This document shows, piece after piece, positions 1,716-23,300 of a stretch of DNA of 40,567 nt. Below the pieces are notes generated by a model. It was not told the DNA's origin, did not search any database, and saw only the letters and a list, made by a program, of their open reading frames with translations. Every line of letters starts with the position of its first letter. Within the stretch, counting starts at the first letter, position 1. The position numbers and the translations under genes were made by a program. The DNA is from a virus: positions 1 through 40,567 of IMG/VR virus record IMGVR_UViG_3300047510_002323; one strand, written 5' to 3'.

Positions 1716-1720
1716 GGCAA

Positions 1721-2006: not shown

Positions 2007-2084
2007 GATTCTTATAACTAGTTCTTAAGGGGTCCAATCCGGTCATCCAAAGTCTCTCTATGAGGCAGAAAGTATAATTTAGAT

Positions 2085-2609: not shown

Positions 2610-2665
2610 TTCAGGGATAGAAACCCCTTAAAAAGTTCTGTTTAACCTAAAATAGGAGAAAACAG

Positions 2666-2926: not shown

Positions 2927-2932
2927 TAAATA
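2925..2932 (+). promoter_or_regulatory. T4-type late promoter upstream of gp25
   Basis: AATAAATA lies 25 bases before the gp25 start and matches the T4 late promoter core (TATAAATA) at seven of eight positions. It overlaps the stop codon of the preceding gene. A start about six bases downstream would give a short leader into the baseplate operon. Confidence 0.55.
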
Positions 2933-2956
2933 ACTTGAGATTATATCTTACCATTA

Positions 2957-3358
2957 ATGCCTTTAGAGAGAGTTAGTAAATCATTTAAAGATATTAGTTT
3001 ATCTCTTCAGGTCAGCCCATTGACTTCTGATATTTTGTCAATTAAAAATGAAACTGCGATTGCAAGATCAGTTCGTAATCTGGTGCTAACTTCACCTGGT
3101 GAAAGATTTTTTAATCCAGAAGTTGGATCTGATGTTGGACAATCATTATTCGAAAACATCGATCCAATTTCTGCTAATACTATTAAATCTCAGATTGAAA
3201 ATACAATCAAAAATTATGAACCGAGGGTTTCATTAACTCGTGTTATTGTAAGTCCTGATTATGATAATAACGCATTTAATGTTACAATCAGATATAATAT
3301 TATAGGTATAGATGTTCCACCTCAACAGTTAGTATTCGTATTACAGCCAACCCGATAA
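2957..3358 (+). CDS. 25: Baseplate wedge protein gp25
   Basis: A 133-residue protein, almost the same length as T4 gp25 (132). It carries the family core: an N-terminal DISLSLQVSP segment, then TAIARSVRNLVLTSPGERFF, then NPEVGSDVGQSLFE. These are hallmarks of the gp25 / gpW-type baseplate proteins found in contractile injection systems. gp25 sits with gp6 and gp53 at the inner wedge core, where tail sheath assembly is nucleated. The gene is followed without any gap by gp6 (TAA, then ATG at 3359), as expected for a co-translated wedge operon. The start is fixed by the late promoter 25 bases upstream and by the family length. I am confident of the identity. Confidence 0.93.
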   Translation: MPLERVSKSFKDISLSLQVSPLTSDILSIKNETAIARSVRNLVLTSPGERFFNPEVGSDVGQSLFENIDPISANTIKSQIENTIKNYEPRVSLTRVIVSPDYDNNAFNVTIRYNIIGIDVPPQQLVFVLQPTR

Positions 3359-5275
3359 ATGGCAATAGTAAATTTTACAAATCTAGATTTTGATCAAATA
3401 AGGATATCCATTAAGGATTACCTTAGGTCAAGCTCAGACTTTACAGATTATGATTTCGAAGGATCGAATTTATCGATCCTAATAGATATTCTTGCTTACA
3501 ACACTTACATCTCCTCATATAATGCTAATATGGTTAGCGGTGAGGTTTTTATTGACAGTGCAACATTGAGAGAAAATGTTGTTTCTTTAGCAAGGAATAT
3601 TGGATATGTCCCGAGGTCAAGAACATCAGCAAGAGCAAATATATCTTTTTTCGTTGATGTTTCGAATTATCCATCAGTTCCAAGAACTATAACCTTAAAA
3701 AAAGGAATTGTATGTACTACAGAGTCTGATTTTAGTGGAGAAAGTTATACCTTTGTCATTAAAGAAGATATTACAGTTTCGGTTATAAATGGAATTGGAT
3801 TTTTTAATGGAGTTGAAATATTTGAGGGAAGTTTATTATATTCCGATTTCTTAGTAAATTCTTTAATACCAAATCCACCTCAGAGATTCATTATTGAAAA
3901 TCCTAACGTTGATGTGAGTACTTTAAGTGTTTCCGTTTTTGAGGGATCTGTAAGCAGTCTTTCTACCAAATATAGTTTGGCTCAAGATATTATTGATGTT
4001 AAATCAGATTCAAAAATATTTTTCATACAGGAAGTAGAAGATCAAAAATATGAATTAATTTTTGGTGATGGAATTTTTGGCGATAGATTGAAAAATAATA
4101 ATGTAATCAGAGCGAGTTATGTAGTTTCAAATGGAGTATTAGGGAATAATTTATCCCAATTCACTTTCTCTGGTAGATTAGTAGACTCTAATAATAGTCC
4201 ACTTTCGAGGGGAATCTCTAATATTGAGACAATTACAGCATCTTATGGTGGAAACGAAATTGAGAGCGTTCAATCAATTAGAAATTATGCCCCAAAATAC
4301 TACTCTTCTCAGAATAGAGCAGTAACAGCAAATGATTTCAAAGCAATTATTCCGAGAATCTATCCAGAGTTAGAGTCTATTAGTGTTTTTGGTGGAGAAG
4401 ACTTAAATCCTCCCAGATATGGGAAAGTTTTTGTTGCAGTTAAACCTCAGAGCGGTTCTTTCTTATCTTCAAGTGCTTCTCAAAATTTAAAAAATTTACT
4501 TAGAAAATATACAGTTGCTGGAATTGTAGTTGATGTTATTGATTTAAAATACTTATTCATTGAATTAGATACTACAATTTATTATAATGAAAACTTAACT
4601 AATAATGCTCAGACTCCTAAAAATAAAGTTATTTCCAATTTAGAAAAGTATTCTAAGTCATTGGAATCAGATAAAAGTGATATTAGATTTAAATATAGTA
4701 AAGTTTTAAATTTAATTGATGAAAGTGATAAATCAATTACTTCTAATATAACAAAAGTTTCTTTAAGAAGAGATTTTAGAGCATCTATTAATCAATTTGC
4801 TGAATATGAAATTTGTTTTGGTAATCAAATACATATTAATAGCCTTAATGGATACAATATAAAGACTTCAGGATTCTCTGTAACTGGTGTTAATGGAACT
4901 GTTTATATTTCAGATAAACCCAATCCAGATCAAAAAACTGGTAATCTTTTTCTATTCAGATTATCAACAGAATCTGATCAACCAATACAAGTTAGACAAT
5001 CTGTGGGTAAGATAGATTATGTGAAAGGTGAGATACTTTTGAACCCAATTAACATAACTTCAACCATTATAGATAGTGGAGAATCTATTGTTGAGATTTC
5101 AGTAACTCCTAAATCAAATGATGTTATTGGTTTACAAGATCTTTATCTAAAACTTGATACAAATAAAGTAACAGTTACTGCTGTTCCTGATAATATTTCT
5201 TCCGGTAATGATATTTCTGGAACGAACTATATCACAACTTCAAGTTATACGAATGGAAAATTAATTAGAGAATAG
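3359..5275 (+). CDS. 6: Baseplate wedge protein gp6
   Basis: A 638-residue protein close to T4 gp6 (660). The N-terminus has the typical helical region with FEGSNLSILIDILAYNTYI and the block LRENVVSLARNIGYVPRS, followed by ARANISFFVDV, all characteristic of gp6 in marine T4-like phages. The middle carries LIFGDGIFGDRL and the segment RNYAPKYYSSQNRAVTANDF, which match the baseplate J-like core. gp6 dimerises to form the inner iris of the baseplate and binds gp25 and gp7. The gene starts directly at the end of gp25 and ends 5 bases before the giant downstream gene. It shows none of the repeat modules that inflate its neighbours. Confidence 0.93.
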   Translation: MAIVNFTNLDFDQIRISIKDYLRSSSDFTDYDFEGSNLSILIDILAYNTYISSYNANMVSGEVFIDSATLRENVVSLARNIGYVPRSRTSARANISFFVDVSNYPSVPRTITLKKGIVCTTESDFSGESYTFVIKEDITVSVINGIGFFNGVEIFEGSLLYSDFLVNSLIPNPPQRFIIENPNVDVSTLSVSVFEGSVSSLSTKYSLAQDIIDVKSDSKIFFIQEVEDQKYELIFGDGIFGDRLKNNNVIRASYVVSNGVLGNNLSQFTFSGRLVDSNNSPLSRGISNIETITASYGGNEIESVQSIRNYAPKYYSSQNRAVTANDFKAIIPRIYPELESISVFGGEDLNPPRYGKVFVAVKPQSGSFLSSSASQNLKNLLRKYTVAGIVVDVIDLKYLFIELDTTIYYNENLTNNAQTPKNKVISNLEKYSKSLESDKSDIRFKYSKVLNLIDESDKSITSNITKVSLRRDFRASINQFAEYEICFGNQIHINSLNGYNIKTSGFSVTGVNGTVYISDKPNPDQKTGNLFLFRLSTESDQPIQVRQSVGKIDYVKGEILLNPINITSTIIDSGESIVEISVTPKSNDVIGLQDLYLKLDTNKVTVTAVPDNISSGNDISGTNYITTSSYTNGKLIRE

Positions 5276-5280: not shown

Positions 5281-8200
5281 ATGCAAAATACAAGGATTAA
5301 AATTAGTAATGTCGTCAAGAATCAACTTCCTAATTTTGTAAAGGAAAATTATCCTTTAGTTGAGAGTCTATTTAAGGAATATTATTCAGGTATTGAATAT
5401 CAAGGTAGCACTCTAGACATATTACAAAATATTGACAAGTATGTTAAACTTGACAATCTTACTAATTTAATTGAAACAACTACTCTAAGTCAAGATATTT
5501 TTTTCACAGATACTAGTATTCCAGTACAGAGTACCACAGGATTTCCTGAAAGATATGGATTAATTCAGATTGATGATGAAGTTATTCTATATAAATCAAA
5601 AACTTCAAATTCATTTGAAGGATGCTCAAGAGGATTTAGTGGAATTACTTCATATGAGAATGGTTTAGAATTCCAAGAAACTAATTCTAGCCGTCATTCA
5701 AGGTCTGCTTCAGTTAAAAATTTAAATATTCTATTTCTTAACGAGTTCTTTAAGAAAATAAAATACCAATTTGCTCCTGGATTTGAGGATAGAAAATTTT
5801 TCTCTGGTTCTACTGTAAAAGTCAATAAAAATCTATTAATAAAGCAACTGAAGGATTTTTATACTTCAAAGGGAACAGATGCTTCATATAAAATCCTATT
5901 TAAAGCATTATTTGGGGATGATGTTCAAGTTATTAAACCAAGAGATTATCTTATTAGACCTTCGGATGCTCAATATAGAAAAAATCAAGAACTAGTTGTT
6001 GAAGCAATTATTGGCGATCCTAAAAATCTTGAAAATACAACGATATTCCAAAATGCATTAACTATTGATGGGGAAGATTTTATATCTTCTGCTTACGGTA
6101 CAGTTAATAAAGTTGAGACTATATCCAGAAAAGATAAGACTTATTATGTTTTAAGTCTTGACTTTGATTATAACAAAGATATTAATTTACGTGGTTCAGT
6201 CTATGGAGAATTTGTAATTGGTCCAAAGACTAGAATTGTTGAAGATATTGTTTCGGGGTCTAAAAATATATCCGTAGATTCTACTTATGGATTTCCTGAA
6301 AAAAATGGAACACTAGTTGTTTATTATGAAGATAATACTTCCCAGTCGATATTTTATGAAAGAAAAAATCTAAATCAATTTTTAGGATGTTCTGGTATCA
6401 CTAGAGATATTGAAAAGGCCAGTGATATCTACTTAGATTATCTTTGTGAAGGTGGTTTAACTGTTGGTCAAGATGAAAATCCAATTAAATTTAGAATTAC
6501 TGGAGTTTTATCAGAAGCAGTAGTTGATCCAAAATCACATTATATTGTGAGTGGAAATAGAATTAATTTAAGAACTTTAGGAAAAGATATTAAGGAAGAA
6601 AAATTTAATAAATTTAAATTAAATATATGTCCATCATATAATGTAAAAACTGTCCAAATTAGCAACTCGCAGAATAATATTTACACTATATCTCTCTATG
6701 ATGATCACATTTTTTATCAAGGTGATGAAGTAACTTTACAGACAACTTCGGGATTGTTTAGAACATATAATGGTGTTGTTGAGTCTGTTTTGGATGATTA
6801 TAGAATAAATGTATCATTACCTTCAAATTTTGACTCAACAAAAAGGTATATAATTGAGAGAAATATTGGAAAGTTTAAATTTTCATATAATTCTGAAATA
6901 TTTCCCGAATCTGATAATGTCTACATTACAGATGTTCAAAACACATATAGAGATTCCGAAGAAAATCTTTATGTTTCATCACAATCTTTACCAAATTACA
7001 GCAAAGATAGAATTAGTTTAAGTGATGAAACTGTAGTATTAAGCGAAGATTTTATTATTACTGAAGAGGTAAATGTAAATAATCCAAATAAGATTGATAA
7101 AATTTTAAATATTGGAAGACATTCTTTTATTACAGGTGATGCGGTATACTACCAGTCCGGACCATCTGGCAACTCTCTTAATATATTAGATGGAGTATAT
7201 TATGTAAAGAGTCTGGGTAGTTTTAATAATTCTACTCAAATTAAATTGGCGAGCAGTAGAAGCAATATTAATAACAATATTTTTATTGACGTTCAATTTG
7301 ATGATACAACTATAAAATTATCCGGAAAAGAAAATAAAATTTATAAATCAACGAATGAATTAATTTTCTTCCAAAATAATACAATTTCTGAGCAACAAAC
7401 TACTTTTAGTAGAAAAATTTCCCCCAAAAATATTATAAGAAAGATTTCAAAACCAATAAGACCAAATAATAAAGTTATAACACCTTCGGGAAATATTGGA
7501 ATTCTAGTCAATGGAGTTGAAGTACAAAATTATAAGTCAAATGATTTTATTTACTATGGTTCTATTAATTCAATAGACGTAAAATCATTTGGAAATGGAT
7601 ATGATGTTATACACCCACCAATTTTAGAGATTGTTGATGAGTCTGGAACTGGTGCTCAAGCAATATCACACGTTAGAGGTTCATTAGATAGAATTGATAT
7701 TTTGGATGGAGGATTTGATTATGATGGAGTTCCTGAGATAAAAATTTCTGGCGGAAATGGATCTAATGCGATTGCAGTTGCAAATATGACTGTTTTTGAG
7801 CATTCTGTCGAATTTATTGCAGAAAGTAATCAAGTAAATACAATTACATATACAATAACTTTCAACTTAAAGCATAAATTTTATGATGGTGAAAGAGTCA
7901 GGTATGCTTATACTGATGCTCCTATTGGAGGATTATCTGAAGATATTGATTATTTCGTTTCTCCAGACTCTGATTTTGTTTTAAAACTTTATGGAACTTA
8001 TCATGATGCAATTAATAAGACAAATCCTATAGAATTAACTTCTTTAGCACCAGGAAAACACTATATTAAAAGCGTAAATAAAAAATCAACGATTGGTACC
8101 ATAGAAGTACTTAGAAGTGGTAAAAATTATACAAATAAAAATTTAGTATTTTCTAATGATAATTTAGATATCTATAGAAATTCTATAAAAATTAACAATC

Positions 8201-11200
8201 ATGGATATAAAACTGGTGAAATAGTTTTATATGATTTTGATGGAACCTCTATACCTGGTTTAACGAGAAATACAGAGTATTTTGTAAGTGTAATTGACGA
8301 AAATCAATTCAGATTATGTGAAATTAATCTAGATCAAGTAAATCCCAAAGAATATAATTTAACTAGAAATATATTTGTTAATTTTTCTGATTATGGAACT
8401 GGAACTTATAGTTTAAATTATAAAGAAATTAAAGTTGAAATTATTGGCAATTTTAAAAACAAATCTTTACCAGTTGAAGATATTGAGGCAAAAATAATAC
8501 CTTATTTTACCGGAGAACTGTTTTCAACAGCAATTCTAAACCCAGGTTCTGGATATGGATCTCCAACCGTATTAAATTATAATAGACAACCTAATATTAT
8601 AGTAAAAAATGGATCTGGATCTGAATTAAGACCCATCATTTCAAATGGACAAATAAAAAGAGTTTTAATCGTTAATGGTGGAACAAACTATAATACAACC
8701 CCATCTATAGAAATAGATGGAGTCGGAACCGGCGCAAAATTAATTCCTATAATCTCAAACGGAAGAATTGTTGATATAAAAGTCATTTCTGAAGGAATAA
8801 ACTATGACAATAATGGCACAAGTCTTAGAGTTGTTTCCTCAGGATCTGGAGCTGCGTTTGATTTTTCAATTCAAACTTGGAATATTAATTCTGTAGAAAG
8901 ATTAATATCAAAGAACTTAATAAGTTCTAATGATATTGTTTTATATGACACAAAAAATGAATTTGGAGAAAGAATTACTCAATTAACTCATTCATATGCT
9001 CCAAGAAAGCTTAGAGAAAATATTTTAGTCTCTACAGTAGAGGGAGAACAAATTTTCTTCAAAAAAGATTTGGAAGTTGATTTTAATGGAGTTGAAAGTG
9101 AGACTTCAATAACACATTCGCCAATTATAGGATGGGCATATGATGGAAATCCAATTTATGGACCATTTGGGTTTACAAATCCAAATGGTACTGGACTAAT
9201 TAAAAAGATGGAATCTGGATATTCAAGACTTTTGCGTGAAAATAGACCAAGTACGGATATTTTTCCTTTGGGATTATTTGTTGAGGATTATGAATATACT
9301 GGTATTGGTGATTTAGATGAATACAATGGAAGATTCTGTGTAACTCCAGATTTTCCTAATGGAATTTATGCTTATTTTTCCACAATTGGTGGATTTGATA
9401 ATCAATTTAGTCAAAAATACTTAAGACCTGAGTTCCCATATTTTATTGGAAATGAATTTAAATCCAATAAAATAGATTTTAATTTTGAAACAACTATAAA
9501 TCAAAACTCCATCTCTTTTGAAGAACTTAATTTGATTAGAAATACAAATCAATATAAATTTTTGAGCGATACTGCAACTTATAATTATGTTTTTAATCCA
9601 ATCGATTATGAAGACCAACTGAACAAAGTAACAAGAACTGAGAGGGGTATAATTGATGATGTTGATGTCATTTCTGGGGGAGAAAATTATTCTGTAGGTG
9701 ATAAAATTGAGTTTGATGAAGATGAGAATGGTAATAAATCATATGCCGAAGTAACTGAAGTTATAGGGAAAACAGTTAATAATATCTCTGTAATTAATAC
9801 TATCGTTGAAAACGTTGAGTTTGGTACGTCATTAACTTCAAATTCTATTATTGGAGTTTCTTCTTCTCCACATGGATTAAATGATAATGATATAATTTCC
9901 ATAATTGGATTAGATGAACTACTTACTAACAATAGAAAAGATGTTAGTTCTTCTGTTGATGTATTTACAAATCAATTAACACTAAATGAAAATATATTGG
10001 TAGGAAATTCTGGCGACAACTTTATACCAAAAACTATTAAAGTTTTGGGAAATTTAAAATCAACCGCTATTAGAGCTAATGACATTTACACTATTGGTGA
10101 TGAAGAACTGAAGGTATTAAATGTATACCCACAAGATTCTAAAATAAATGTTTTAAGAACTAAAGCTGGCATTTCTTCTCATCCGTCAGGAACAATTTTA
10201 ATTGAGAACCCAAGATTCTTTGAAGTTCCCACATCTAGAGATATTTCTTCTCCTGTTTTATTGTCAGATCAAAATTATCCATTAAATAATGAAATTTATT
10301 TTGACCCATTAGTTTCTATTGGTATCGGAACTATTGGAGATGTAACTTCAATTCTTCTTGAAATTAATCCTTTAAATTATCAGATAGGCATCTCTACAGA
10401 CGCATTAGTTTATGGTGATTCAAGTGAAAAACTTAGTTTTGTATTTAACAATCCAGCAAATTCTTCCAATTTTAAAATTGGGGATTATGTAAGTTTGACT
10501 GGTTCAACCGATCCATCTCTAAACGATTTGGGATCTCTTAAAGTTCTTAATGTTGACTTTGGGTCAATTATTGTTGATTATAATACGAGTTCATTAACTG
10601 GAACCCAATTAGATGCTATTGCATCAATCGATCCAGAATTTGTTTCTTATGTTCAAAAGTGGATTACTAGAGAGATTCCAATTAGACAAATATATTTACC
10701 AGAGCACAAACTAAAAACTGGTGATAAAATTGTTTATAATAATAATGAAGGATCGCCAATTATTGTATCTGAAGATAAAACAAATACATTTGAATTGCTA
10801 GAACCAGATAATTTATATGCTTACGTATTTGATTCTAATCATATTGGAGTATCTACGGATATTGTTGGATTGACTAGTACCGGAGAATATTTAAATCCAG
10901 AAAATAATTCTACACTATTATATTTCATTAATCCTGGTTCGAGGAAATATCATAGTTTTAAAACTGATTATGATAATGTTCAGGTTGGAAAAATTTCTAA
11001 GAATATTGCAAGAGTAACTACATCAGGAAATCCTTCCTTATTCTATAATGAAAAGATTAATATTGATGTAAAAGATACTTCTCAAAGAGAAATTGTTGTA
11101 AAATATAATGATGCCAATAGAAGATTAATTTTTGATCCTAAACAATTTGTAGAAACTGACCCAGTAAATGATACGATTAATATTAATAATCATGGATATT

Positions 11201-14200
11201 ATACTGGACAAAAAGTCATACACACTACAGGTGATATCTCTTCAATAGAAAATGATAAAATTTATTATGTTGTGGTTGAGGATGACAATAATTTTAGTTT
11301 AGCAGAAACTTATAATGATGCCATTTTAAAAAAACCAAATATTATCGGTATTACAACCACATCATTTGGAGAAATTTCTTCTGTAAATCCACCATTCAAT
11401 CTTTACAAAAATCAAACTGTTGATTTTATCTTAACCGATGAATCTTTATCATTTACAAATAATGACGTAAAATTCTCCGCATTTGACTTTGACTTATATG
11501 TTGATGACCAATTTACTGAAAAATTCATAAAATCAGAAAATGATGATTCCTTTAAGGTTACTAAGACTGGAAAAATTGGTGTAGAAAATTTTGCAAAAGT
11601 TAGACTACAGATTAATGACCACACTCCACAGAAACTATTTTATAAATTTACCTTAGTTAATACTTCACTCAACATTCCAGAAACAAAATCTCAATATAGA
11701 GTTGATGATGATGATATTAAGGATAACAGCACATTATTCATCTTAGATAGTGCTTATTCGGGACAAAAGAGAGTTTACTCTTCTGGTTCAAATTATTTTG
11801 AGTATTTCTTAAGAAATAGACCTGAGAAGACTTCTTATACTACAACTAATTCCAATATTTCATATGTAACTGATTCTTATTCAACAACTGGAAGTATCAG
11901 TAAAGTTTCAGTTCTTTCTAGAGATAGAAAGTATAGAGTTCTACCAGGAATAACTTCTATTACTACGAAAACTGGAAGTGGCGCGTTACTATTCCCATCT
12001 AGTGAAAAAATTGGTTCAGTTAAAAAGGTTGATATTCAGAACATTGGATTTGATTATAGCATAGACTATAGTTTGAGACCAACTGGGAATCTCCCACAAT
12101 TAATAAATGTTGAACCATTAAGTATATTTAAAGATATTAAAGTACTTTCTATTGGTAAAAATTATACTATTATACCAGATCTCATAGTTCTTGATGGATT
12201 AACTAATAAATTTGATGCCCAATCCGAATTAAAATTTATCCCAGATGATTATGAAGTTGAAATAATCCAAAATAGCTCTGGTCTTTTCAATAAAACTCCA
12301 ATAATTGTTCCTATCAATAATTCTAACGGGATTAGTGTTAGAAGTGTATCTTATAATGTTGATAATAAGACATTGACATTCATTTTAAATCCATCATTCA
12401 GTAGCGAAGCAGATTTTCCATTTGATGACGGTGATAAAGTTTTACTTGAAAACTTTAGAGTTAATGATATTGTTGTAGACCCAATTACTAATGAAGTCAC
12501 TGTAAATGAAAATGTTAAAGGAATTAATTCGGAAAACTATGGTTATGCTTTATTTACAGTTAGAGATGTAAACAAGGCAATTGGAGGAAGCGGGGCAAGT
12601 TTTACAATTGATATGAGTGATTATTTGGTTCGTGATGAGATTCCTGGTGATTATAGACCTGTCAACTCTTTTGGGTATGTCGTTCCTCAAAGTTACTTCC
12701 CAACATTTGAAATAACACTCCAGAAGAACAACTTTGTTATTGGTGAAGAAGTTGTTACTACTAGTGGTTTTACTGGAATTGTTGAATATTGGGATAGAGA
12801 GAACGAGTTTGTTAGTGTTCTTTCTGCGGATAAATTTGTAACTGGTGATAGAATAACTGGAAAAACTTCAAACTTGAGTGGTATTGTAGGAAAGGTTCAA
12901 TTTTATGATGCTGAGTATAGAACAAATTCTTCATCTACAGTTGCTAGAGGTTGGGATAATACAATAGGATTCTTAAATGATAAGAGTCAGAGAATTCAAG
13001 ACAGTTTCTATTATCAGTATTTCTCATATGATTTAAAGTCAAAAACTCAATTTTCAGAATGGGATGATGCAGTATCCAGTTTAAATCACGTATCCGGATT
13101 TAAAAAGTTTTCAACTTTTGAAGTAGAATCTTCAACTGAAACTGCTAATCCAGTTAGTATTTCATATTCAGAATTAAACTCCGTTTCAGATTTAATCTCT
13201 ATAGTTGATTTGAATTCTTATGTCAATTTTGATATGGTTTCTGAAAATTCATATCTTCTTGATGGTAGAGTTGCATCTGACCAAATCGTATTTAATACTA
13301 TTCCAATTCAAGATTATGCCGAATCTATCGGAAATAGAGTCTTAATGATAGATGATTTTAGTGGAGAATTTAATAATCTTCCTAGAGAAGAAAGATTTGT
13401 TGTTGCCGATAGATTCCCAATTTTCCAAACTAGATTTAGAAAGTATTTTACATATGTTAAGGATAAACTATTCTTTAATGAGAGGCAATTTGGAATAATT
13501 ACAGTAATTCATGACAATCTAGAAGGTTATGTCTCTCAATATGGTAGGTTAGATACTGTAGGTGAATTAGGAAACTTTGAATTTAAGATTAATGGAAACT
13601 TTGGAGAAATTACTTTCAATCCATTCGATTATGAATTTAATGACTTTGATATTGAGTTAGTATCATATAGTTTATTCGATACTTTTGTTGGTTTGGGATC
13701 TACTACCCAAGAATATTATAATCTTGGAGACCTTGTTGTATTTAATAACCAGACCTCAAAAATTCCTGCTGGGACAACATCGACGGTTGGTATTTCCACT
13801 ATAGATTTTTCATATAGATCTTCTAAGGTTTTAGTTACTTTAAATGATAATAATGGACAATTTAGAGAATCTGTTGAATTAAATGTTACGCATGATGGAA
13901 CTGAAGTCTATATATCTGAATATGGAAAATTATATACAGAACCTCTCAATCCTCCAATAGGATTCGCAACTTACAGTGGAGTAATTTCTGGATCAAATAT
14001 TATCATTAATGCAACTCCAGCAGTTTCTTATGGATCAACCCTAGAGATTAATACATTTAATATTTCTATTGGTGATATTACAAAAACATCTTCCGGTGTA
14101 TTGGCACTAAGTAATACTCGATTGGAATCTGGATTTGTTAATATTGCAATAACTGCTACTCCGTCTCCTATACTAATTCATGAACATACTCTTGTTTATG

Positions 14201-17200
14201 GAGGATCTTATTACTATATTTCAGTTGAGGATGTATCCAATGGAATTTATAATTCATTAGAACTCACTACTGTTAATAATGATAGTGATGTATATCAAAC
14301 TGAATTTGGATCTGTAATTAGCGATAATTCCCTTGTTGAACTTGGAACTTTTGAGACTCAAGTTGTTGGTAATAGGTGTAAATTATTCTTTACACCATTA
14401 CCCGGTAGAAACATTAGTGTTAGATACTATTATCAAGGTGTGAAGACTATCACTGAAAATCCAGAAACACCAGGAGAATTAATTCTATCCCTTAACGAAT
14501 CTCAAATTAACTCATATACAACTGATTATATTGGAACAGAAAATGCAATAAGAAGATCTTTTGAACTTTATCATAAAAATCTTAGAATTCTTAGAAGAGT
14601 ATTTAATGCATCAAGTTTTACTTCTGTTAATTTAATTGAAGATACTATTAGAATTCCAAATCATTATTTTGTTACAGGTGAGGAAGTTGTATATGACACG
14701 AATGGTGATGATCCTATTGGAATAGCAGCTACCGATATTCCTGGAATTGGAGTTACTACTGTATTGCCATCAAAACTTTACATTGTTAAAGAGAATGATT
14801 TGTTTGTAAGAGTTGCTGCATCGGCATCCCAAGCATTAAAGTCTATTCCTGATTATCTGGATTTGACTTCTTATGGAACTGGAACAAATCATACATTCAC
14901 AGGCAAAAAGGGAAATCCAAGATCTTTGATTACAATTGATAATATGATTCAACAGCCCATAGTTCCAACTTCATTTGAGACAACAATATCAGAACCTGTG
15001 GGATTGAAAGATGTTAGAGTTAAAGTTGAAAATCCCGAAGTCTTTATTGGTGGAGATATATTTAGAGTTGATGATGAAATTTTGAGAGTTAAAGTTGTTG
15101 GATTCGGTTCTGAAAATACTTTATTAGTCAATAGATTCTGGTTAGGTTCTCTTCCAGGAATTCACACTGTTGGAGCTGCCTGTACAAAGTTAACTGGAGA
15201 TTATAATATTGTAGATAATACAATTTATTTTTATGATCCTCCATATGGACCAATTCCAATCACTCCAACTAATCCAAAACCAGATGAAGTTGATTTTGTT
15301 GGAATTGCTACAGGATCTTCATTCTCAGGAAGAATATTTAATAAATCTGGAGAGATTAATGGTTTAAATCCAACATATTCTGATAACATACTACTTGATG
15401 GACTTTCCGAAGAGTTTACTGGAATTAGAAGTGAATTTACTTTAAAAGAAAAGGGATTGCCAGTATCTGGAATTTCAACGTCAAATCTATTTGTATTAGT
15501 TAAGAATATCCTTCAGGTTCCTTTTGATGAACAAAATAATCCAAATGGAGCATTTACTCTCGGACAATTACCTGGACCTGGTGGAGAAACTACAATTATA
15601 TTCAAACAAAATGAAGAAGTTTTGAATATTGATGATATAAACTCAACCAACCTTCCTGCAAGTGGAATAATTGTAAGCACGGGATCTACATTTGGAGCAG
15701 GATATCAACCACTGAGAACTCCTGGAGCATCGGCAACAATTGCTAATGATGGATCAATCTCAAATATAACAATTGGGTCGACTGGAAGTGGATATAGACT
15801 AATTGGTGGAAAAGAAATTTTAGTTACAACTTCTTCTGGAATTTCTTCAGGATTAAATATTCTACCCATCAATGAAGAAAGAGGATTGTTTGATAAACTA
15901 GCATATTCTTCTTCTCAGACATGTAGTGTTGGAGTTGGTACAGTTTATAATGATGTTCAGATTATCGGATTTGATCAAATAAGTTCTACAATAACTCTTG
16001 CGGAAAACCTAGATGTAGATCTTCCTGCCGATTCTCAAGTTTCAATTAAACTGAATGATTTAACTACAGAATTAGTTGATATTGGAATTAGAACAGAAAG
16101 TCAATCAGACTATGATGTAACTTATCTTGGATTTACTACAGTTATTAATGGTTCTATTTCATCAACTTTGAATTTAGTTAATCCTGGAATAGCTTTAACT
16201 GCTTTCTATGATGTTTTTGAAACTCGTGCGTCACAATCAGTTTCTGTAGGATCTACATTAGTTTATGTTAATAGTATTAGAAATATTAATAATATTAACA
16301 ATTATATTACAATAAATTCAAATTTCAATGTAAAGATTACTGGAATTGGAAATACTTTTATCACTGTCGATACGCCATTAGCATCTATTGCGGAAAATGA
16401 CGTTGTAACCATCAGAAGATATTCTCCTCCAGAGATTGTATTTGATTCTCCTGTTGGTTACTCCAATATTCCATTAATTTATAGTTCAGATTCTGGATCT
16501 TCTGGAATTGGGTCGGGGGCAAAACTTGATTTGATAGTTGGCGCTGATGGTAGTGTTATTGATTTTACATTCAAAAATAATGGATATGGATATAGACCGT
16601 TTGATGTGTTGACAGTTCCTACTGGAGGATTAATTGGAATTCCAACAGATCCTTCACAAACATTTAGTGAGTTTAAAATATTTGTTGATGATGTGTATGA
16701 TACTAAGTTTTCATCTTGGTCTATTGGAGATCTTCAAGTTATTGATAATTTTGATGATTTGTTTGATAACGTAAGACAAATTTTCCCAATAAAAATTAAT
16801 GGAGAAATAAAATCTCTTAGAGCAAAGAAGGGATCTAGTATTGATATTCAGGCAACTTTAATAGTTCTGTTCAATGATATTCTTCAGGTTCCTGGCGAAG
16901 GTTATACATTTAGGGGTGGAAGTATTATTTACTTCCCAGAGCCACCAAAATTTGGAGATACTGTTACTATAATATTTTATAGAGGAAATGGAGATGTTGA
17001 TGTTTTAGATGTTGATGTTTTAGAACCAATTGAAGTTGGTGATTCTTTGAATATTGTTAGTGATGTTAAGAGATTAAATCAAAATGAAAGAATTGTCTCT
17101 GAAATTGTATCTTCTGATTATGCAAATACTTTCATATATTCTGACAAAGGAATTGTTAATGATTTTAATTTCTTAAGACCAGTCATTTTATCCAAACAAA

Positions 17201-18831
17201 CTATCGATGCTGTTGTTGATGGTCAATTTGTTGGTAAAGATAGAGTTTACTATGAACCAAATATATTCCCTTCGGCAAAATTAATATCAAATATAACTGG
17301 GGTTTCTTCTGCATTTTATATTGATAGCTTAAAACCATTTTTTGATAATGCCGCAGAAATTATAGAAGATAGGGAAAGAAATAAGATTAAAATTATTGAC
17401 CAAACACAAAAATCTGCTGCCAGAGCAACTTGCCAAGTAACAGATGGAGAAGTTACTTCAGTCAATATCATTGACGGAGGTGAAGGATATGTTACGGCAC
17501 CTAATGTTTCAATTGAATATCCATATTTCTCAAATCCATCTCCAATAGGTATAGCATTAACAAATATTGACACCCTAATTGGAACAATATCTTCTACAGG
17601 CATTTCAACTGCGATTATTGGTGAATTTTTATCTGGTCAAAATAGTGGTGCCTCAGCAATTCTTGCTGGAATAACTACTGATAATTATATTGAAGTTTTA
17701 CCAATTAATTTGAATAGATTCCAAGTTGGAGAAGAAATAAATCTATTTGAGAGTGGATTTAGTGCCGATATTCTTAGCATAGATTCTACAGAATTTGCTA
17801 CAGCAACATCAACAATATCTTCTGGTTCAGTCAATTTAATTACAATAACAAATCCCGGAACAGGATATACTTATGGTCCAATCAAGGAGTTACAAGTTAT
17901 ATCAAATGGTTCTGGATATCCTGCAACTTTAAATGAATCCAATAGCACATTCACTTCTGCAAGACTTAAGTCTAAGACTGGAATTGGTAGAAATGCTTCA
18001 GTTGATATTAACTTGATTGTTGATCCAATTACCGAAAATTTTGTAGTTGATATAAACAATGTTAATATTACTTCAAAAGGATTCAAATATTCTGTTGGAG
18101 ATATTTTGGAAGTTGATGTTTTTGATAATCCTGGAATTGGAGAAACTTTTAGAAATTACCCATTAACAAACCCATTTAGATTTGAAGTTACTGAAATAGA
18201 ATCTCCGAAGATATCTATTGACCCTCCAACACCAAAAACTGAAATAATTTCTGATATTTCATATGTTTCGGGAGATTTTGGTATTGTTGTTGGAGTCAGT
18301 AATATTGACAGAGTTGTTGTTGGAAGTATTGATCCACCAGCAATTATTTTTGATATGTACATTCCAGAATATTCTATTCTAAGAGATGAAGATTTTATCG
18401 GAAATACTGTTGTCGGATCTGCAATAACAATTTCTCAATTACAAACAGGAGATTATTTCTCAATTTCCAATTCAACAGTTGGAAATATTCCAAATACATC
18501 TTACAGTATTGATGGACAAGTTGTTGGTGTATCCACGAATTTGGATAACATTTACCAGGTACTTTTCGCGCAGATTATACAAATAAATCATCCAAAATAT
18601 GGATTAATTTATATAAATCGAGTTTCATGTCCTATACAGAATTTAACTAGTGAGTTTAATGGAACTTTAGGGCAAAGTGATATTGCGGAGTTTAGTTGGG
18701 GCAAAATTTCAAACTTAGATAAAAGAATCACTCCAAAAGAATTCAATGTTGATTTAACATATACACAAAATCATCCAATTGTTCAAAGATATAATCCGTT
18801 GAAGATTGCAAATTATGATTATTCTTCTTAA
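5281..18831 (+). CDS. 7: Giant gp7-type baseplate wedge protein, 4516 aa
   Basis: It sits exactly where gp7 lies in T4, between gp6 and gp8. gp7 links the wedge core to peripheral proteins; T4 gp7 has 1032 residues, this one 4516 (roughly 500 kDa). Residues 1-70 form a helical head. Residues 77-120 and 325-380 carry two copies of a TGFP...ID(D)E...GCSRG-like module. A six-copy family of NHG/TG modules lies near residues 607, 862, 970, 1806, 1970 and 3126. GxGY modules occur near 771, 1089, 1134, 1172, 3502, 3766, 4066, 4194 and 4210. A YHYH-like motif (WAYDGNPIYGPFG) is at 1285-1300. No stop or frameshift interrupts the frame. The gp7 identity rests mainly on position and the N-terminal region, since most of the length is beta-rich repeat. 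Confidence 0.75.
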   Translation: MQNTRIKISNVVKNQLPNFVKENYPLVESLFKEYYSGIEYQGSTLDILQNIDKYVKLDNLTNLIETTTLSQDIFFTDTSIPVQSTTGFPERYGLIQIDDEVILYKSKTSNSFEGCSRGFSGITSYENGLEFQETNSSRHSRSASVKNLNILFLNEFFKKIKYQFAPGFEDRKFFSGSTVKVNKNLLIKQLKDFYTSKGTDASYKILFKALFGDDVQVIKPRDYLIRPSDAQYRKNQELVVEAIIGDPKNLENTTIFQNALTIDGEDFISSAYGTVNKVETISRKDKTYYVLSLDFDYNKDINLRGSVYGEFVIGPKTRIVEDIVSGSKNISVDSTYGFPEKNGTLVVYYEDNTSQSIFYERKNLNQFLGCSGITRDIEKASDIYLDYLCEGGLTVGQDENPIKFRITGVLSEAVVDPKSHYIVSGNRINLRTLGKDIKEEKFNKFKLNICPSYNVKTVQISNSQNNIYTISLYDDHIFYQGDEVTLQTTSGLFRTYNGVVESVLDDYRINVSLPSNFDSTKRYIIERNIGKFKFSYNSEIFPESDNVYITDVQNTYRDSEENLYVSSQSLPNYSKDRISLSDETVVLSEDFIITEEVNVNNPNKIDKILNIGRHSFITGDAVYYQSGPSGNSLNILDGVYYVKSLGSFNNSTQIKLASSRSNINNNIFIDVQFDDTTIKLSGKENKIYKSTNELIFFQNNTISEQQTTFSRKISPKNIIRKISKPIRPNNKVITPSGNIGILVNGVEVQNYKSNDFIYYGSINSIDVKSFGNGYDVIHPPILEIVDESGTGAQAISHVRGSLDRIDILDGGFDYDGVPEIKISGGNGSNAIAVANMTVFEHSVEFIAESNQVNTITYTITFNLKHKFYDGERVRYAYTDAPIGGLSEDIDYFVSPDSDFVLKLYGTYHDAINKTNPIELTSLAPGKHYIKSVNKKSTIGTIEVLRSGKNYTNKNLVFSNDNLDIYRNSIKINNHGYKTGEIVLYDFDGTSIPGLTRNTEYFVSVIDENQFRLCEINLDQVNPKEYNLTRNIFVNFSDYGTGTYSLNYKEIKVEIIGNFKNKSLPVEDIEAKIIPYFTGELFSTAILNPGSGYGSPTVLNYNRQPNIIVKNGSGSELRPIISNGQIKRVLIVNGGTNYNTTPSIEIDGVGTGAKLIPIISNGRIVDIKVISEGINYDNNGTSLRVVSSGSGAAFDFSIQTWNINSVERLISKNLISSNDIVLYDTKNEFGERITQLTHSYAPRKLRENILVSTVEGEQIFFKKDLEVDFNGVESETSITHSPIIGWAYDGNPIYGPFGFTNPNGTGLIKKMESGYSRLLRENRPSTDIFPLGLFVEDYEYTGIGDLDEYNGRFCVTPDFPNGIYAYFSTIGGFDNQFSQKYLRPEFPYFIGNEFKSNKIDFNFETTINQNSISFEELNLIRNTNQYKFLSDTATYNYVFNPIDYEDQLNKVTRTERGIIDDVDVISGGENYSVGDKIEFDEDENGNKSYAEVTEVIGKTVNNISVINTIVENVEFGTSLTSNSIIGVSSSPHGLNDNDIISIIGLDELLTNNRKDVSSSVDVFTNQLTLNENILVGNSGDNFIPKTIKVLGNLKSTAIRANDIYTIGDEELKVLNVYPQDSKINVLRTKAGISSHPSGTILIENPRFFEVPTSRDISSPVLLSDQNYPLNNEIYFDPLVSIGIGTIGDVTSILLEINPLNYQIGISTDALVYGDSSEKLSFVFNNPANSSNFKIGDYVSLTGSTDPSLNDLGSLKVLNVDFGSIIVDYNTSSLTGTQLDAIASIDPEFVSYVQKWITREIPIRQIYLPEHKLKTGDKIVYNNNEGSPIIVSEDKTNTFELLEPDNLYAYVFDSNHIGVSTDIVGLTSTGEYLNPENNSTLLYFINPGSRKYHSFKTDYDNVQVGKISKNIARVTTSGNPSLFYNEKINIDVKDTSQREIVVKYNDANRRLIFDPKQFVETDPVNDTININNHGYYTGQKVIHTTGDISSIENDKIYYVVVEDDNNFSLAETYNDAILKKPNIIGITTTSFGEISSVNPPFNLYKNQTVDFILTDESLSFTNNDVKFSAFDFDLYVDDQFTEKFIKSENDDSFKVTKTGKIGVENFAKVRLQINDHTPQKLFYKFTLVNTSLNIPETKSQYRVDDDDIKDNSTLFILDSAYSGQKRVYSSGSNYFEYFLRNRPEKTSYTTTNSNISYVTDSYSTTGSISKVSVLSRDRKYRVLPGITSITTKTGSGALLFPSSEKIGSVKKVDIQNIGFDYSIDYSLRPTGNLPQLINVEPLSIFKDIKVLSIGKNYTIIPDLIVLDGLTNKFDAQSELKFIPDDYEVEIIQNSSGLFNKTPIIVPINNSNGISVRSVSYNVDNKTLTFILNPSFSSEADFPFDDGDKVLLENFRVNDIVVDPITNEVTVNENVKGINSENYGYALFTVRDVNKAIGGSGASFTIDMSDYLVRDEIPGDYRPVNSFGYVVPQSYFPTFEITLQKNNFVIGEEVVTTSGFTGIVEYWDRENEFVSVLSADKFVTGDRITGKTSNLSGIVGKVQFYDAEYRTNSSSTVARGWDNTIGFLNDKSQRIQDSFYYQYFSYDLKSKTQFSEWDDAVSSLNHVSGFKKFSTFEVESSTETANPVSISYSELNSVSDLISIVDLNSYVNFDMVSENSYLLDGRVASDQIVFNTIPIQDYAESIGNRVLMIDDFSGEFNNLPREERFVVADRFPIFQTRFRKYFTYVKDKLFFNERQFGIITVIHDNLEGYVSQYGRLDTVGELGNFEFKINGNFGEITFNPFDYEFNDFDIELVSYSLFDTFVGLGSTTQEYYNLGDLVVFNNQTSKIPAGTTSTVGISTIDFSYRSSKVLVTLNDNNGQFRESVELNVTHDGTEVYISEYGKLYTEPLNPPIGFATYSGVISGSNIIINATPAVSYGSTLEINTFNISIGDITKTSSGVLALSNTRLESGFVNIAITATPSPILIHEHTLVYGGSYYYISVEDVSNGIYNSLELTTVNNDSDVYQTEFGSVISDNSLVELGTFETQVVGNRCKLFFTPLPGRNISVRYYYQGVKTITENPETPGELILSLNESQINSYTTDYIGTENAIRRSFELYHKNLRILRRVFNASSFTSVNLIEDTIRIPNHYFVTGEEVVYDTNGDDPIGIAATDIPGIGVTTVLPSKLYIVKENDLFVRVAASASQALKSIPDYLDLTSYGTGTNHTFTGKKGNPRSLITIDNMIQQPIVPTSFETTISEPVGLKDVRVKVENPEVFIGGDIFRVDDEILRVKVVGFGSENTLLVNRFWLGSLPGIHTVGAACTKLTGDYNIVDNTIYFYDPPYGPIPITPTNPKPDEVDFVGIATGSSFSGRIFNKSGEINGLNPTYSDNILLDGLSEEFTGIRSEFTLKEKGLPVSGISTSNLFVLVKNILQVPFDEQNNPNGAFTLGQLPGPGGETTIIFKQNEEVLNIDDINSTNLPASGIIVSTGSTFGAGYQPLRTPGASATIANDGSISNITIGSTGSGYRLIGGKEILVTTSSGISSGLNILPINEERGLFDKLAYSSSQTCSVGVGTVYNDVQIIGFDQISSTITLAENLDVDLPADSQVSIKLNDLTTELVDIGIRTESQSDYDVTYLGFTTVINGSISSTLNLVNPGIALTAFYDVFETRASQSVSVGSTLVYVNSIRNINNINNYITINSNFNVKITGIGNTFITVDTPLASIAENDVVTIRRYSPPEIVFDSPVGYSNIPLIYSSDSGSSGIGSGAKLDLIVGADGSVIDFTFKNNGYGYRPFDVLTVPTGGLIGIPTDPSQTFSEFKIFVDDVYDTKFSSWSIGDLQVIDNFDDLFDNVRQIFPIKINGEIKSLRAKKGSSIDIQATLIVLFNDILQVPGEGYTFRGGSIIYFPEPPKFGDTVTIIFYRGNGDVDVLDVDVLEPIEVGDSLNIVSDVKRLNQNERIVSEIVSSDYANTFIYSDKGIVNDFNFLRPVILSKQTIDAVVDGQFVGKDRVYYEPNIFPSAKLISNITGVSSAFYIDSLKPFFDNAAEIIEDRERNKIKIIDQTQKSAARATCQVTDGEVTSVNIIDGGEGYVTAPNVSIEYPYFSNPSPIGIALTNIDTLIGTISSTGISTAIIGEFLSGQNSGASAILAGITTDNYIEVLPINLNRFQVGEEINLFESGFSADILSIDSTEFATATSTISSGSVNLITITNPGTGYTYGPIKELQVISNGSGYPATLNESNSTFTSARLKSKTGIGRNASVDINLIVDPITENFVVDINNVNITSKGFKYSVGDILEVDVFDNPGIGETFRNYPLTNPFRFEVTEIESPKISIDPPTPKTEIISDISYVSGDFGIVVGVSNIDRVVVGSIDPPAIIFDMYIPEYSILRDEDFIGNTVVGSAITISQLQTGDYFSISNSTVGNIPNTSYSIDGQVVGVSTNLDNIYQVLFAQIIQINHPKYGLIYINRVSCPIQNLTSEFNGTLGQSDIAEFSWGKISNLDKRITPKEFNVDLTYTQNHPIVQRYNPLKIANYDYSS

Positions 18832-18865: not shown

Positions 18866-20383
18866 ATGTCGGCAATTATAACTGACCAGCTTAGAATATC
18901 TAATGCTCTTGGATTTATTGAAAAAGTTAATTCCGCAAATAACGCATATTATGTGTTTTTAGGATTATCAAATTCGACCGAGTACTTACCTACTTGGGAA
19001 GATTTGCCTCCATTTCCAAGAGATAATTTTAATGAGGAGAATAAAATATGGGACACTATGTTCTCACTCAAAAAGATATCACCGGGAGATGTTTCTCCTG
19101 TTGTGAGGAGAATTAATTGGGAGTCTGGAAGAACTTATGATATGTATCGTCATGACATAAGTATTGATAAGCGTGCTAATCAAACAGATTCTACTTCTTT
19201 ATATTCTTCCGATTATTATGTTGTAACTCAAGATTATAGAGTTTATATTTGCCTTCAAAACGGAACTTCTCCAGAATCTGTTAGAGGAAATCCTTCTTTG
19301 GATGAACCAACATTTACAGATCTAGAACCTAGATCTGCTGGTACTAGTGGAGATGGATATGTATGGAAATATCTTTATACAATAAGACCTAGTGAGATTA
19401 TAAAGTTTGATAGTACTAACTTTATCCCTGTTCCTAGAGACTGGAAGACAAATCCCGATTATTCCGGTGTTATTGAAAACGCTTCAACAAGTGGACAATT
19501 AAAAATTGTCAATATCTTAGATAGAGGAACAAATTTGGGTGCTCCCGGTCTATATCAAAATATACCTATCAAAGGTGATGGTAGTGGAGCAACGGTAACA
19601 GTTATTGTTGGAAGTGATAGAACAGTTGATAGTATATTTGTTTCAAATGGTGGAAGTGGATATACTTATGGAACTGTTGATTTGGAAAACTCTGGATTAT
19701 TTTTAAATGATCCACCAAAGTTTGATGTAATAATACCTCCAAAAGGAGGACATGGTGCCGATATTTATAGAGAGTTGGGATCAACAAACGTATTACTCTA
19801 CTCTAGAATTGAAAATGATATTGGTGATCCTGATTTTATAGTTGGTAATAAGGTTGCGAGGGTTGGAATTGTCCAAAATCCTGAAGCATTTGATTCAACT
19901 TCAATTTTAAACAAAGAAAAGGCAAGTTCTGTATATGCTCTCAAATTAAAAGACAATTCAGCAACAATTTTACCAAACTCATCATTCACACAAGACATTG
20001 CTGGAGTAGGAACTGCTATTGGTAGAGTTGTTTCTTATAATGATGAAACTAAAGTACTAAAATATTGGCAAGATAGGACTCTATATGGATATACAACATC
20101 CGGAATTTCAACATCTGCTCCAAATGGTTATAATCAAATTCAATTTAGTACCGAAGATAATATTGAAGTAAATTCAATTATTGTTGAAATTGATGATACT
20201 TTTAACGGTATATCTACAGTAATAAATAGTGGTACCGTATACCTTGGTCAAAATTTTGAAGAAGGATTTGCTAACCCCGAAGTAAAAAAATATACGGGAG
20301 ACATTATCTACGTTGATAATAGACCCTCAATTAGCAGATCTTCTAATCAGAAAGAGGATATTAAAGTCGTTTTACAATTCTAA
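18866..20383 (+). CDS. 8: Baseplate wedge protein gp8, enlarged
   Basis: The N-terminal part has classic gp8 features: YYVFLGLSNSTEYLP, then WDTMFSLKKISPGDVSPVVRR, YRVYICLQN, and DGYVWKYLYTIRPSE near residues 165-180. The C-terminus ends GDIIYVDNRPSISRSSNQKED followed by IKVVLQF, matching the ending of T4 gp8. The length is 505 against 334 in T4, and the excess is interior. Residues 212-275 form a GxGY module (SGATVTVIV...SNGGSGYTYG), and further insert lies around 300-440. gp8 dimers bridge gp7 and gp10 in the T4 wedge. The start at 18866 follows a late promoter. A nearby ATG at 18856 is in a different frame. Identity is firm; the function of the insert is unknown. Confidence 0.9.
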   Translation: MSAIITDQLRISNALGFIEKVNSANNAYYVFLGLSNSTEYLPTWEDLPPFPRDNFNEENKIWDTMFSLKKISPGDVSPVVRRINWESGRTYDMYRHDISIDKRANQTDSTSLYSSDYYVVTQDYRVYICLQNGTSPESVRGNPSLDEPTFTDLEPRSAGTSGDGYVWKYLYTIRPSEIIKFDSTNFIPVPRDWKTNPDYSGVIENASTSGQLKIVNILDRGTNLGAPGLYQNIPIKGDGSGATVTVIVGSDRTVDSIFVSNGGSGYTYGTVDLENSGLFLNDPPKFDVIIPPKGGHGADIYRELGSTNVLLYSRIENDIGDPDFIVGNKVARVGIVQNPEAFDSTSILNKEKASSVYALKLKDNSATILPNSSFTQDIAGVGTAIGRVVSYNDETKVLKYWQDRTLYGYTTSGISTSAPNGYNQIQFSTEDNIEVNSIIVEIDDTFNGISTVINSGTVYLGQNFEEGFANPEVKKYTGDIIYVDNRPSISRSSNQKEDIKVVLQF

Positions 20384-20389: not shown

Positions 20390-23300
20390 ATGCCACAAGA
20401 AACTAATTTGAATGTAACTCCTTATTTTGATGATTTTGACGACAAAAAGAATTTTTATAAAGTTCTTTTTAAGCCAGGATATCCAATTCAATCTAGAGAA
20501 TTGACTACTCTACAGTCAATTTTACAGAATCAGGTTGAAAAGTTTGGATCACATTTTTTCAAAGAAGGTTCTCCAGTTCTTGGTGGCAATGCAGTTTATA
20601 ATAATTATTTTGAAGGAATCCAAGTAGAACCAAACTATCTTGGAATTTCTGTAGATTCTTATTTGAAAAATTTTATTGGCAAATATCTCATTGGACAAGA
20701 TTCTCAAGTAAAGGCAAGAGTTGAATTTATTTTGCCCGCTAACGAGTCTCCAACTGGCAATACTATAATATATGTTTCATATAGGGATTCAAATTCATCG
20801 CAAAACACAAGAGAATTTAATTCAGGAGAAATTCTTTTATCTCAGGATGATGTTCCTATTATTTCTGGTGGATTTACTACAATTCAGTCTGGACAGGGAG
20901 TATCTAGAGTTACTTCACAAAATTCTTCTATTGTTGGATCTTCAGTTACTATTCCAGACAGTGTCTTTTTTATTAGAGGATATTTTGTTAATGTTGAAAG
21001 AGAAACTATTATATTAGATCCTATTGCAAATAATGTAAATTATAGTATTGGACTAAAAATAACGGAAGATATTGTCACATCTGACGATGATGAATCTTTA
21101 GTTGATAACTCACAAGGATTTACAAATTTTGCTGCTCCTGGAGCAGATAGACTTTCAATTACCGTATCTTTAGCAAAGTATTCATTTTCAGAAACTCAAG
21201 ATGAAGGATATATTGAGTTATTTAAAGTTGTAGATGGATCTCCAGATAAAGTTCAAAGAGATGCTGAGTATAATCTTCTCGCAAATGAGTTTGCTAGAAG
21301 AACTTATGATGAATCTGGAGACTATTATGTTGCCCCATTTAAGGTTGATGTTAGAGAGTCTCTTGATAATTTAAAGGGAAATAAAGGAATATTCAAAGAA
21401 GGTCAAACAACTTATGGTAATAATGTTGCTGATGAGACTCTAGGAATTTATAAAGTATCTCCAGGAAAGGCATATATTAGAGGATTTGAAGTAGAAATTC
21501 CAAATCCAACCTTTATAGATTTTCCAAAACCAAGATTAACTAAAACACTAAAAAATCAAAGTATTGTTTATACAACCGGATCAACTTTTACATTGAATAG
21601 AGTTAATGGAAATCCTTCTTTAGGAATTTCGACAGATTATACAGTAACTCTAAGATCCGAAAGATTGGGAGTAGATGATAATATAGCACCAGGAAAGGAA
21701 ATTGGTCTTGCTAGGGTTTATGATTTTGCCTTAGAGTCAGGGTCATACAATAGCCTGTTTCCAAATTCTAATGAGTGGGATATTACTCTTTTTGATGTTC
21801 AACCATATATTGAATTTGAACTGAATAATCCAGTCACCTTACAGGTTCCAACTTTTATTAAAGGCAGTTCTAGTGGTGCTTCTGCATATTTAAGAGAATC
21901 TATCACAAACTCTGGAATTGTTACTGCATATAATGTAGAAGGAAAGTTCTTAAGAGGTGAAAAACTAAGTTTTGATGGTATTCAAAATAATAGAATTATA
22001 AAATCATTCACTCAATATGATGTAAATGATTTTAAATCAATTTATGGAGAACCAGTTGGAACTGGAGCAACTTTTAGTGCTGATTTAATACAAACGGTTA
22101 AAGCATTTGCTGGATTTGTTTCTATTTCTCCTGTAGTTGGTGGAATCAGTACGGTAACAAGTTCCGACTTTACATTTTCTGGACCATCAAAGATTAATGA
22201 TATTGTAGCATATTCAACTCCAGGTAATGTTGTACCAACATTTGCAAAAATAACATCTATTTCTGAAAGACAGTTGGAAATTGAAGAAGTTACTCCTGTT
22301 AGTGGAGTTTGCGTATCTACACTTCCTACATCAGTACTTTCTGTATCAGATTTTAGAATTTTAAAGTCTGGTCTTCAAAGTTCTACAGATAATACTTTAT
22401 TTACAGTATTTCCAAAAGATAAAATATCTTCACTTAACTTAGAAAATTCTGAATTAATAGTTAGAAAGCAAACTGTTATTAATATTTCTGGAAATAGTTC
22501 TCAAGTAATCGTATTACCAAGTGATGAGAGATTTTTACCCTATGATGAAGAAAGATATTCTGTATTTTATCCCAATGGAAGTACAGATCCACTTAGAGAG
22601 GATAAATTCTCATTCACATTAGGGTCTCAGAATCTAAGGATTAATGGACTATCCGCTTCTACTGGAACTGCGATTTTAACATATACAGTCAAAAAATTAA
22701 ATGTATCCGCAAAGATAAAGAATAGAAATAGAGTTAATTCTATTGTTGTTGACAAATCGAAATATAATTATTCTGGAATTGGACAAACTACTGTCAATGA
22801 TGGATTAGAATTCGGAAATTATCCATACGGAACAAGAGTTCAAGATGAAAGCATTTGTTTAAGATATCCCGATGTTACAAAATTATTGGGAGTTTATGAA
22901 ACATCAAGCATTATTGGTACACCAGAACTTCAGTCCATTACTTTAAATCTGAATACTCTCACAACATCAAATTTGATATTGGGAGAAGAAATTGTAGGAC
23001 AGGAAAGTAAGTGTGTTGCTATTTTAGTAGAAAGAGTCGGTATTAATTCGGTTAGCTATATCAGTCTAAATTCAGCAGAATTCATTCCTGGTGAAGGAGT
23101 TCAATTTAAAGAATCTAATGTTGTTTCAACAATTTCTTCTTTAAATAGAGGAAATTGTAAAGATATTACTAGAGATTTTGTATTTGACAATGGACAAAAA
23201 AATACTTTCTATGATTATGCAAAAATAACTAGAAAAGATAGGTCTAGAGAACCACTCAAAAAACTAAAGATTGTTTTCGAATCAACTTCAATAAATTCTG

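Follow-up and report, generated by a model that had tools for sequence, protein, structure and literature searches.

Gene organization of the locus

The stretch of viral DNA analyzed here (the window; an IMG/VR virus record of 40,567 nucleotides) contains a baseplate region in which a gp25 homolog, gp6, a giant gp7, gp8, and a VrlC-like protein are encoded in that order on one strand (Table 1). The gp7 frame begins with an ATG at position 5281, ends with its stop codon at 18831, and encodes 4516 aa with no internal stops. The initial annotation had described a single uninterrupted frame in the gp6-gp8 interval, and this description stands, with gp6 (phrog_219) and gp8 (phrog_438) recognizable on either side. 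The VrlC-like protein of the window is homologous to VrlC of P-SSM4, which in turn matches VrlC of S-SM2. It too is very large, and contains a Gly_rich_2 stretch (1724-1938) unmatched in the alignment with P-SSM4 VrlC.

Table 1. Predicted features of the gp7 region and its flanking genes. Numbers in parentheses are residues of the window gp7.
Feature	Position	Strand	Basis
gp25 homolog (sheath initiator), upstream context	2957..3358	+	Pfam GPW_gp25 E 1.4e-15
gp6, wedge partner of gp7	3359..5275	+	phrog_219 E 2e-188; Gp6-like_1st above cutoff
Giant gp7	5281..18831	+	single frame; phrog_2885 match; intact in independent contigs
gp7 core piece 1 (1-291)	5281..6153	+	T4 gp7 match; PDB profile; Foldseek
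~2200-residue insert of beta modules (~292-2490)	6154..12750	+	lies between core pieces
H-x-x-x-TG repeat, copy 1 (606-665)	7096..7275	+	self profile matches up to E 1e-13; none in reversed control
YHYH-family domain (1276-1368)	9106..9384	+	PF14240 E 1.8e-24
gp7 core piece 2 (2551-2656)	12931..13248	+	phrog_26741 371-474 E 1.3e-7; phrog_17744
Split region of DSL-LC02 (~2612/2649) and L200 (~2698/2716)	13114..13428	+	gene structure of relatives
gp9-C-like domain 1 (2704-2831)	13390..13773	+	profile and Foldseek matches
gp9-C-like domain 2 (2832-2959), clearest copy	13774..14157	+	phrog_967 E 3.4e-8 and 2.6e-7
gp9-C-like domain 3 (2960-3084)	14158..14532	+	gp9-C HMM, profile matches
Split region of B23, L159, and L166 (~3050/3069)	14428..14490	+	gene structure of relatives
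Distal part (3085-4516)	14533..18831	+	separate gene in B23, L159, L166
gp8	18866..20383	+	phrog_438 E 5e-153; Pfam Phage-Gp8 E 5.8e-17
VrlC-like/DUF4815 protein, 2787 aa, gp9/gp10 position, separate from gp7	20390..28753	+	PF16075 E 5e-57

A giant gp7 of the cyanophage type

At 4516 aa, the protein is indeed more than four times as long as T4 gp7 (1032 aa), but its size, initially taken as something special, is ordinary among the Kyanoviridae. By translation, 474 phage records match its first 3000 residues, nearly all of them from phages of Synechococcus or Prochlorococcus, and residues 2-4196 align to positions 6-3994 of the 4179 in the phrog_2885 profile (2965 bits). Computed from printed annotation coordinates, the annotated gp7 proteins of isolates measure 1942 aa in MC09, 3884 in S-CAM9, 4067 in Bellamy, 4156 in S-SM2, 4307 in P-TIM68, 5195 in P-SSM2, 6076 in syn9, 6483 in Syn19, and 7312 in P-SSM4; outside the cyanophages, the lengths are 498 aa in X1, 1007 in phiM12, and 1032 in T4. 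A 6619-aa gp7 relative has been detected by mass spectrometry in virions of S-SZBM1 (PMC9146016). The window protein is a normal, already annotated giant gp7 of marine cyanophages (Kyanoviridae). It shares with the phrog_2885 proteins (annotated "baseplate wedge initiator/subunit") of S-SM2, Bellamy, S-B05, P-TIM68, and P-SSM2 the position between gp6 and gp8 and the same order of core, YHYH-family domain, gp9-C-like triplet, and distal part, with 33-37% identity to the closest isolates across the first 3000 residues. It differs in belonging to an uncultured phage, in being somewhat longer (most of the others have about 4000-4300 aa), and in a stretch of ~200 residues near 3510-3715 that many relatives do not have.

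The initial annotation had raised the concern that the frame might be an assembly fusion. Although no near-identical DNA is present in the phage collection, fifteen contigs contain sequences closely related to the middle of the gene, and those that are long enough retain a single frame. Intact orthologous frames of about 4510-4526 aa, with 58-82% amino acid identity or more, are found in independent metagenomic contigs, and an assembly fusion is thus excluded. In comparisons with two orthologous contigs, substitutions are concentrated at the third position of codons in almost every segment, and this holds also where the natural split points discussed below fall; a full-length single frame is also present in the cultured phages S-SM2, Bellamy, S-B05, P-TIM68, and P-SSM2. 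Against this evidence, the two-gene arrangement of the gp7 interval in five relatives leaves a negligible probability that two genes were joined, whether through a chimera in the assembly or through loss of a stop codon.

A gp7 core predicted to be divided by a large insert

The assignment as gp7, made at first from the letters of the sequence, is borne out by homology searches. T4 gp7 residues 724-811 align with residues 183-291 of the window protein (E 5.7e-9), and an HMM of residues 1-245 matches T4-type gp7 in hhalign (E 2.4e-8). A profile of the first core piece (A1) finds T4-type gp7 as its best PDB profile matches (E 4e-5 and 2e-4), and Foldseek places gp7-sized chains of T4-type baseplate entries at ranks 1, 2, and 5 for the N-terminal model (9f4a_A0, 5iv5_BJ, and 5hx2_A). 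The AlphaFold model of residues 1-320, built without partners, has a mean pLDDT of 57.7, with the predicted helices at 8-61 below 50; the Foldseek result is taken as supporting evidence only, due to this low confidence in the core helices. The first core piece would comprise these N-terminal helices, which may correspond to the helix-turn-helix by which T4-type gp7 joins the (gp6)2-gp7 core bundle, a beta insert (62-147), and a trifurcation-type segment (183-218).

A second core piece lies beyond an insert of ~2200 residues. Residues 2558-2626 match phrog_17744 671-738 (E 1.1e-9), and the piece as a whole corresponds to the C-terminal parts of the compact gp7 families phrog_17744 and phrog_26741; it forms the end of the protein in MC09 and phiM12. 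Its match to T4 gp7 itself is weak (E 0.034), and searches of PDB sequences with the whole protein or with this piece gave no relevant match. Compact gp7 proteins bridge both pieces: X1 gp7 7-116 matches a T4-type gp7 at 649-761, and further matches come from the two PHROG families. These comparisons identify the frame as the gp7 ortholog of a Kyanoviridae-like cyanophage, and they show a predicted conserved core that is split into residues 1-~290 and ~2500-2650, separated by an insert of ~2200 residues and followed by a C-terminal extension of ~1870 residues. The insert is absent from T4 gp7 and from gp7 proteins of ~500-1000 aa. No counterpart of T4 gp7 1-720 was found in the window protein; thus, while T4 gp7 occupies the same genomic position and shares the core segment, its extra domains precede the core, whereas the cyanophage proteins have theirs inside and after it. 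In X1 (L089, positions 9803-11299), gp7 residues ~259-325 weakly resemble a tail sheath protein from the PDB (E 0.04).

T4 gp7 has been stated to be absent from cyano- and pelagimyophages, apparently substituted by VrlC (PMC7029224). In both the window and S-SM2, a gp7 core is present beside a separate VrlC gene, which bears on that claim of substitution for cyanomyophages.

Repeats, the YHYH-family domain, and the distal part

The excess length over T4 gp7 had been ascribed mostly to repeated beta-rich modules, which overstates their share. A profile self-comparison classes 31% of the chain as repeats at a probability cutoff of 90, 39% at 80, and 43% at 50, against 0% in the reversed-sequence control, so that repeats would make up no more than about half of the excess. 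The repeat families are H-x-x-x-TG, with six copies (the first in Table 1, the others at ~847-937, 951-1056, 1799-1889, 1933-2045, and 3107-3214); GFP-x-x-G, which occurs two or three times; the GxGY modules; and three ~128-residue units in tandem at 2704-3084 (the triplet). The head closure family phrog_460 (Hc2) matches repeat modules of gp7 at 4027-4136 as well as the neck protein, which suggests, at the level of sequence, that neck and baseplate proteins share a GxGY module.

The YHYH-family domain scores 87.2 bits against a Pfam cutoff of 25 but covers only the second half of the PF14240 model. YHYH domains are predicted to be metal-dependent hydrolases in a survey of jumbo phages (PMC7824862). 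In 35 gp7 proteins, H1279 is the only invariant histidine of the domain and the YHYH motif is absent, while bacterial members have GVYHYHG or TYHYHG upstream. A catalytic role thus appears unlikely for the gp7 domain.

Within the distal part, residues 3081-3506 and 3716-4094 form conserved blocks. No known receptor-binding domain was recognized in the giant gp7. The distal part was also considered as an equivalent of the ~1400-aa wedge subunit encoded in the gp7-gp8 interval of P-SSM4 and Syn19 (T4-GC 399). This was rejected, as there is no collinear homology; the two share repeat modules and YHYH only.

A tandem triplet of gp9-C-like domains

Several comparisons connect the triplet with T4 gp9. 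In HMMER searches against PHROGs, gp7 2823-2915 matches positions 407-498 of phrog_967 (E 3.4e-8), the family in which T4 gp9 spans positions 229-518, and 11 of 44 single repeat units also match this family (best E 2.7e-9). A profile built from the repeats alone gives one match in the six-frame translation of the T4 genome, at gp9 ~192-278 (E 0.0014). Across 14 T4-like genomes, it gives a single match in six, confirmed in every case to be the gp9 C-terminal domain (E 7e-7 to 0.006), and no match in eight; a search of PDB sequences with the repeat profile did not return gp9. Thus, the homology is remote, and the Pfam gp9-C family PF23618 is itself not reached from the triplet. In the reciprocal direction, a gp9-C HMM ranks gp7 relatives first after gp9, at the triplet (best E 7e-8; E 3.5e-4 for the window protein), and hhalign of the triplet with gp9 gives E 4.7e-5 against 0.073 or higher for gp8, gp7, gp10, gp11, and reversed controls. 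The triplet is modeled with a pLDDT near 90 in the model of residues 2460-3510, for which the top PDB match in Foldseek is T4 gp9 (E 1.9e-4, prob 1.00); low-probability matches such as EBV gp350 were taken as generic beta matches.

Taken together, these comparisons show residues 2704-3084 to be exactly three predicted tandem domains homologous to the C-terminal, fiber-side domain of T4 gp9 (PF23618; phrog_967; gp9 ~190-278). Exactly three copies are present in all 34 relatives compared, and also in the isolates S-SM2, B23, Bellamy, S-SCSM1, S-B05, SynMITS9220M01, and P-TIM68. The gp7 proteins of Syn19, P-SSM4, MC09, and S-CAM9 lack the triplet. While T4 gp9 is a separate trimer of three chains, the window has three copies in a single gp7 chain and no gp9 N-terminal domain: the baseplate-anchoring domain PF07880 has no match in the giant gp7, so the region is gp9-C-like rather than a gp9. 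The triplet and the split-core layout seem to be undescribed in the searchable literature, from which most subscription journals are excluded. One further copy of the gp9-C-like domain was seen in S-SM2 (NC_015279.1, 91101-91340; E 1.5e-20) within an open frame of 555 codons, possibly E3SJ01, a tail-fiber-like protein found by Foldseek.

Strict replacement of gp9 by the triplet was considered and rejected. PF07880 is absent from S-SM2, B23, P-SSM2, Bellamy, and SynMITS9220M01, but S-SCSM1 (L236), S-B05 (L237), and P-TIM68 (L239) encode, in addition to a triplet, a protein bearing the N-terminal domain of gp9/10, the gene for which directly adjoins the giant gp7. The triplet is therefore not a simple replacement for gp9. 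The product of the adjoining gene may itself be a fiber anchored at this place. The "gp9" of P-SSM4 and Syn19 was likewise rejected as a source of the triplet, as only its N-terminus resembles T4 gp9/10 and nothing in it matches the repeats of the triplet.

Natural gene splits

The region is encoded as two genes in five relatives (B23, DSL-LC02, L159, L166, and L200), with three junctions in all, so that the chain divides naturally at these points. The two products measure 2845 and 1081 aa in B23, where the genes overlap by ATGA, 2514 and 1432 aa in DSL-LC02, and 2543 and 1500 aa in L200. The split falls directly before the triplet in L200 and near its end in B23, L159, and L166. Apparent breaks in L170 (5759-5838) and L185 (6803-6834) were rejected as true splits, as their open reading frames overlap and the core of L185 is the same as that of the intact L184; these are probably sequencing or assembly frame errors. 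In a tree of 47 relatives, 40 are fused and seven are labeled split, including these two. The split label is scattered over the tree, with seven changes, five of which are forced by well-supported branches, and both fusion and splitting are possible as directions of change.

Separate genes in close relatives had been named at the outset as evidence that would count against a single giant gp7. The five clear cases exist, but with a single frame in 40 of the 47 sampled relatives they reveal modularity rather than error. The accompanying proposal, that the chain carries host-contact domains kept separate in other phages, holds in part: three gp9-C-like domains are present and the distal part is separate in the five two-gene relatives, while host contact itself we infer. 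The natural splits provide ready-made domain boundaries for expression.

A possible role for the peripheral domains

We favor, as reasonably probable, a reading of the giant gp7 as a wedge core with covalently attached peripheral domains that probably serve in fiber docking; the anatomy derives from sequence and the docking we infer. The two core pieces would fold together on two copies of gp6 to form the (gp6)2-gp7 center of the wedge, with the insert and the C-terminal extension projecting to the baseplate rim. The most likely mechanism would have the triplet act as a covalently attached docking site for a fiber or adhesin, such that modules at the rim could couple contact with the host to rearrangement of the wedge and contraction of the sheath, and this coupling would not depend entirely on a gp9 trimer assembled on its own. 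T4 gp9 is a trimer whose N-terminal domain binds gp7 and to whose C-terminal domain the long tail fibers attach (PMC3004832), and it is by reasoning from this arrangement that the triplet is a candidate docking site. The tail spikes of phage XM1 attach at two sites on the gp7 counterpart (gp17, 242 aa), a loop of its core domain and the C-terminus (PMC10457771). These sites may be comparable in position to the insert and the C-terminal extension of the window protein. XM1 differs in that its spikes are proteins of their own and its loop has ~27 residues. S-SZBM1 and several relatives have been reported to have no long tail fibers or related genes (PMC9146016).

T4-like cyanophages abound in the ocean, and the present work maps the domains of their largest baseplate protein and offers a specific candidate site for docking of a fiber or adhesin. 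A more tentative proposal, which we regard as possible but doubtful, is that the three domains of the triplet pack together as a single-chain pseudo-threefold socket, such that in this cyanophage lineage the long-tail-fiber socket, homotrimeric and separate in T4, is built covalently into gp7. If so, fiber movement would act directly on the wedge core. The triplet may instead be a general beta module rather than a socket, as similar folds occur in many cyanophage fiber, spike, and structural proteins. The additional domains could be a passive rim scaffold of beta modules common in marine phages, with no fiber-docking role for the triplet. The viability of Syn19, P-SSM4, MC09, and S-CAM9 without a triplet and the coexistence of gp9 N-terminal-domain proteins with it in three isolates are consistent with such a scaffold. 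However, 34 diverged relatives all have exactly three copies, and the best match in both the PDB and whole genomes is the gp9 C-terminal domain of T4; this is rather specific behavior for a generic module, and we consider a passive scaffold less likely.

Alternatively, the single polypeptide could be cleaved after synthesis to give wedge, triplet, and distal proteins, and the mature virion would then resemble that of phages in which two or three genes occupy this interval. The natural splits, at three junctions, do show the parts to be functional as individual chains. However, neither a protease nor a cleavage signal was identified, and 71 peptides (13.5% coverage) are assigned to the 6619-aa gp7 of S-SZBM1 in a published table that neither shows nor excludes cleavage (PMC9146016); processing is improbable.

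Other genes in the region

Beyond the VrlC-like gene, the window encodes a neck protein of 469 aa (29982-31391) with the T4_neck-protein domain in residues 2-175, much longer than T4 gp14. At 38293-40566 lies a collagen-repeat fiber protein that runs off the window, with 44% GC against 33% for the window and long antisense open frames. Five related contigs (L152, L175, L192, L204, and L208) contain 1.2-4.2 kb of extra DNA between gp7 and gp8, which is likely a variable fiber site.
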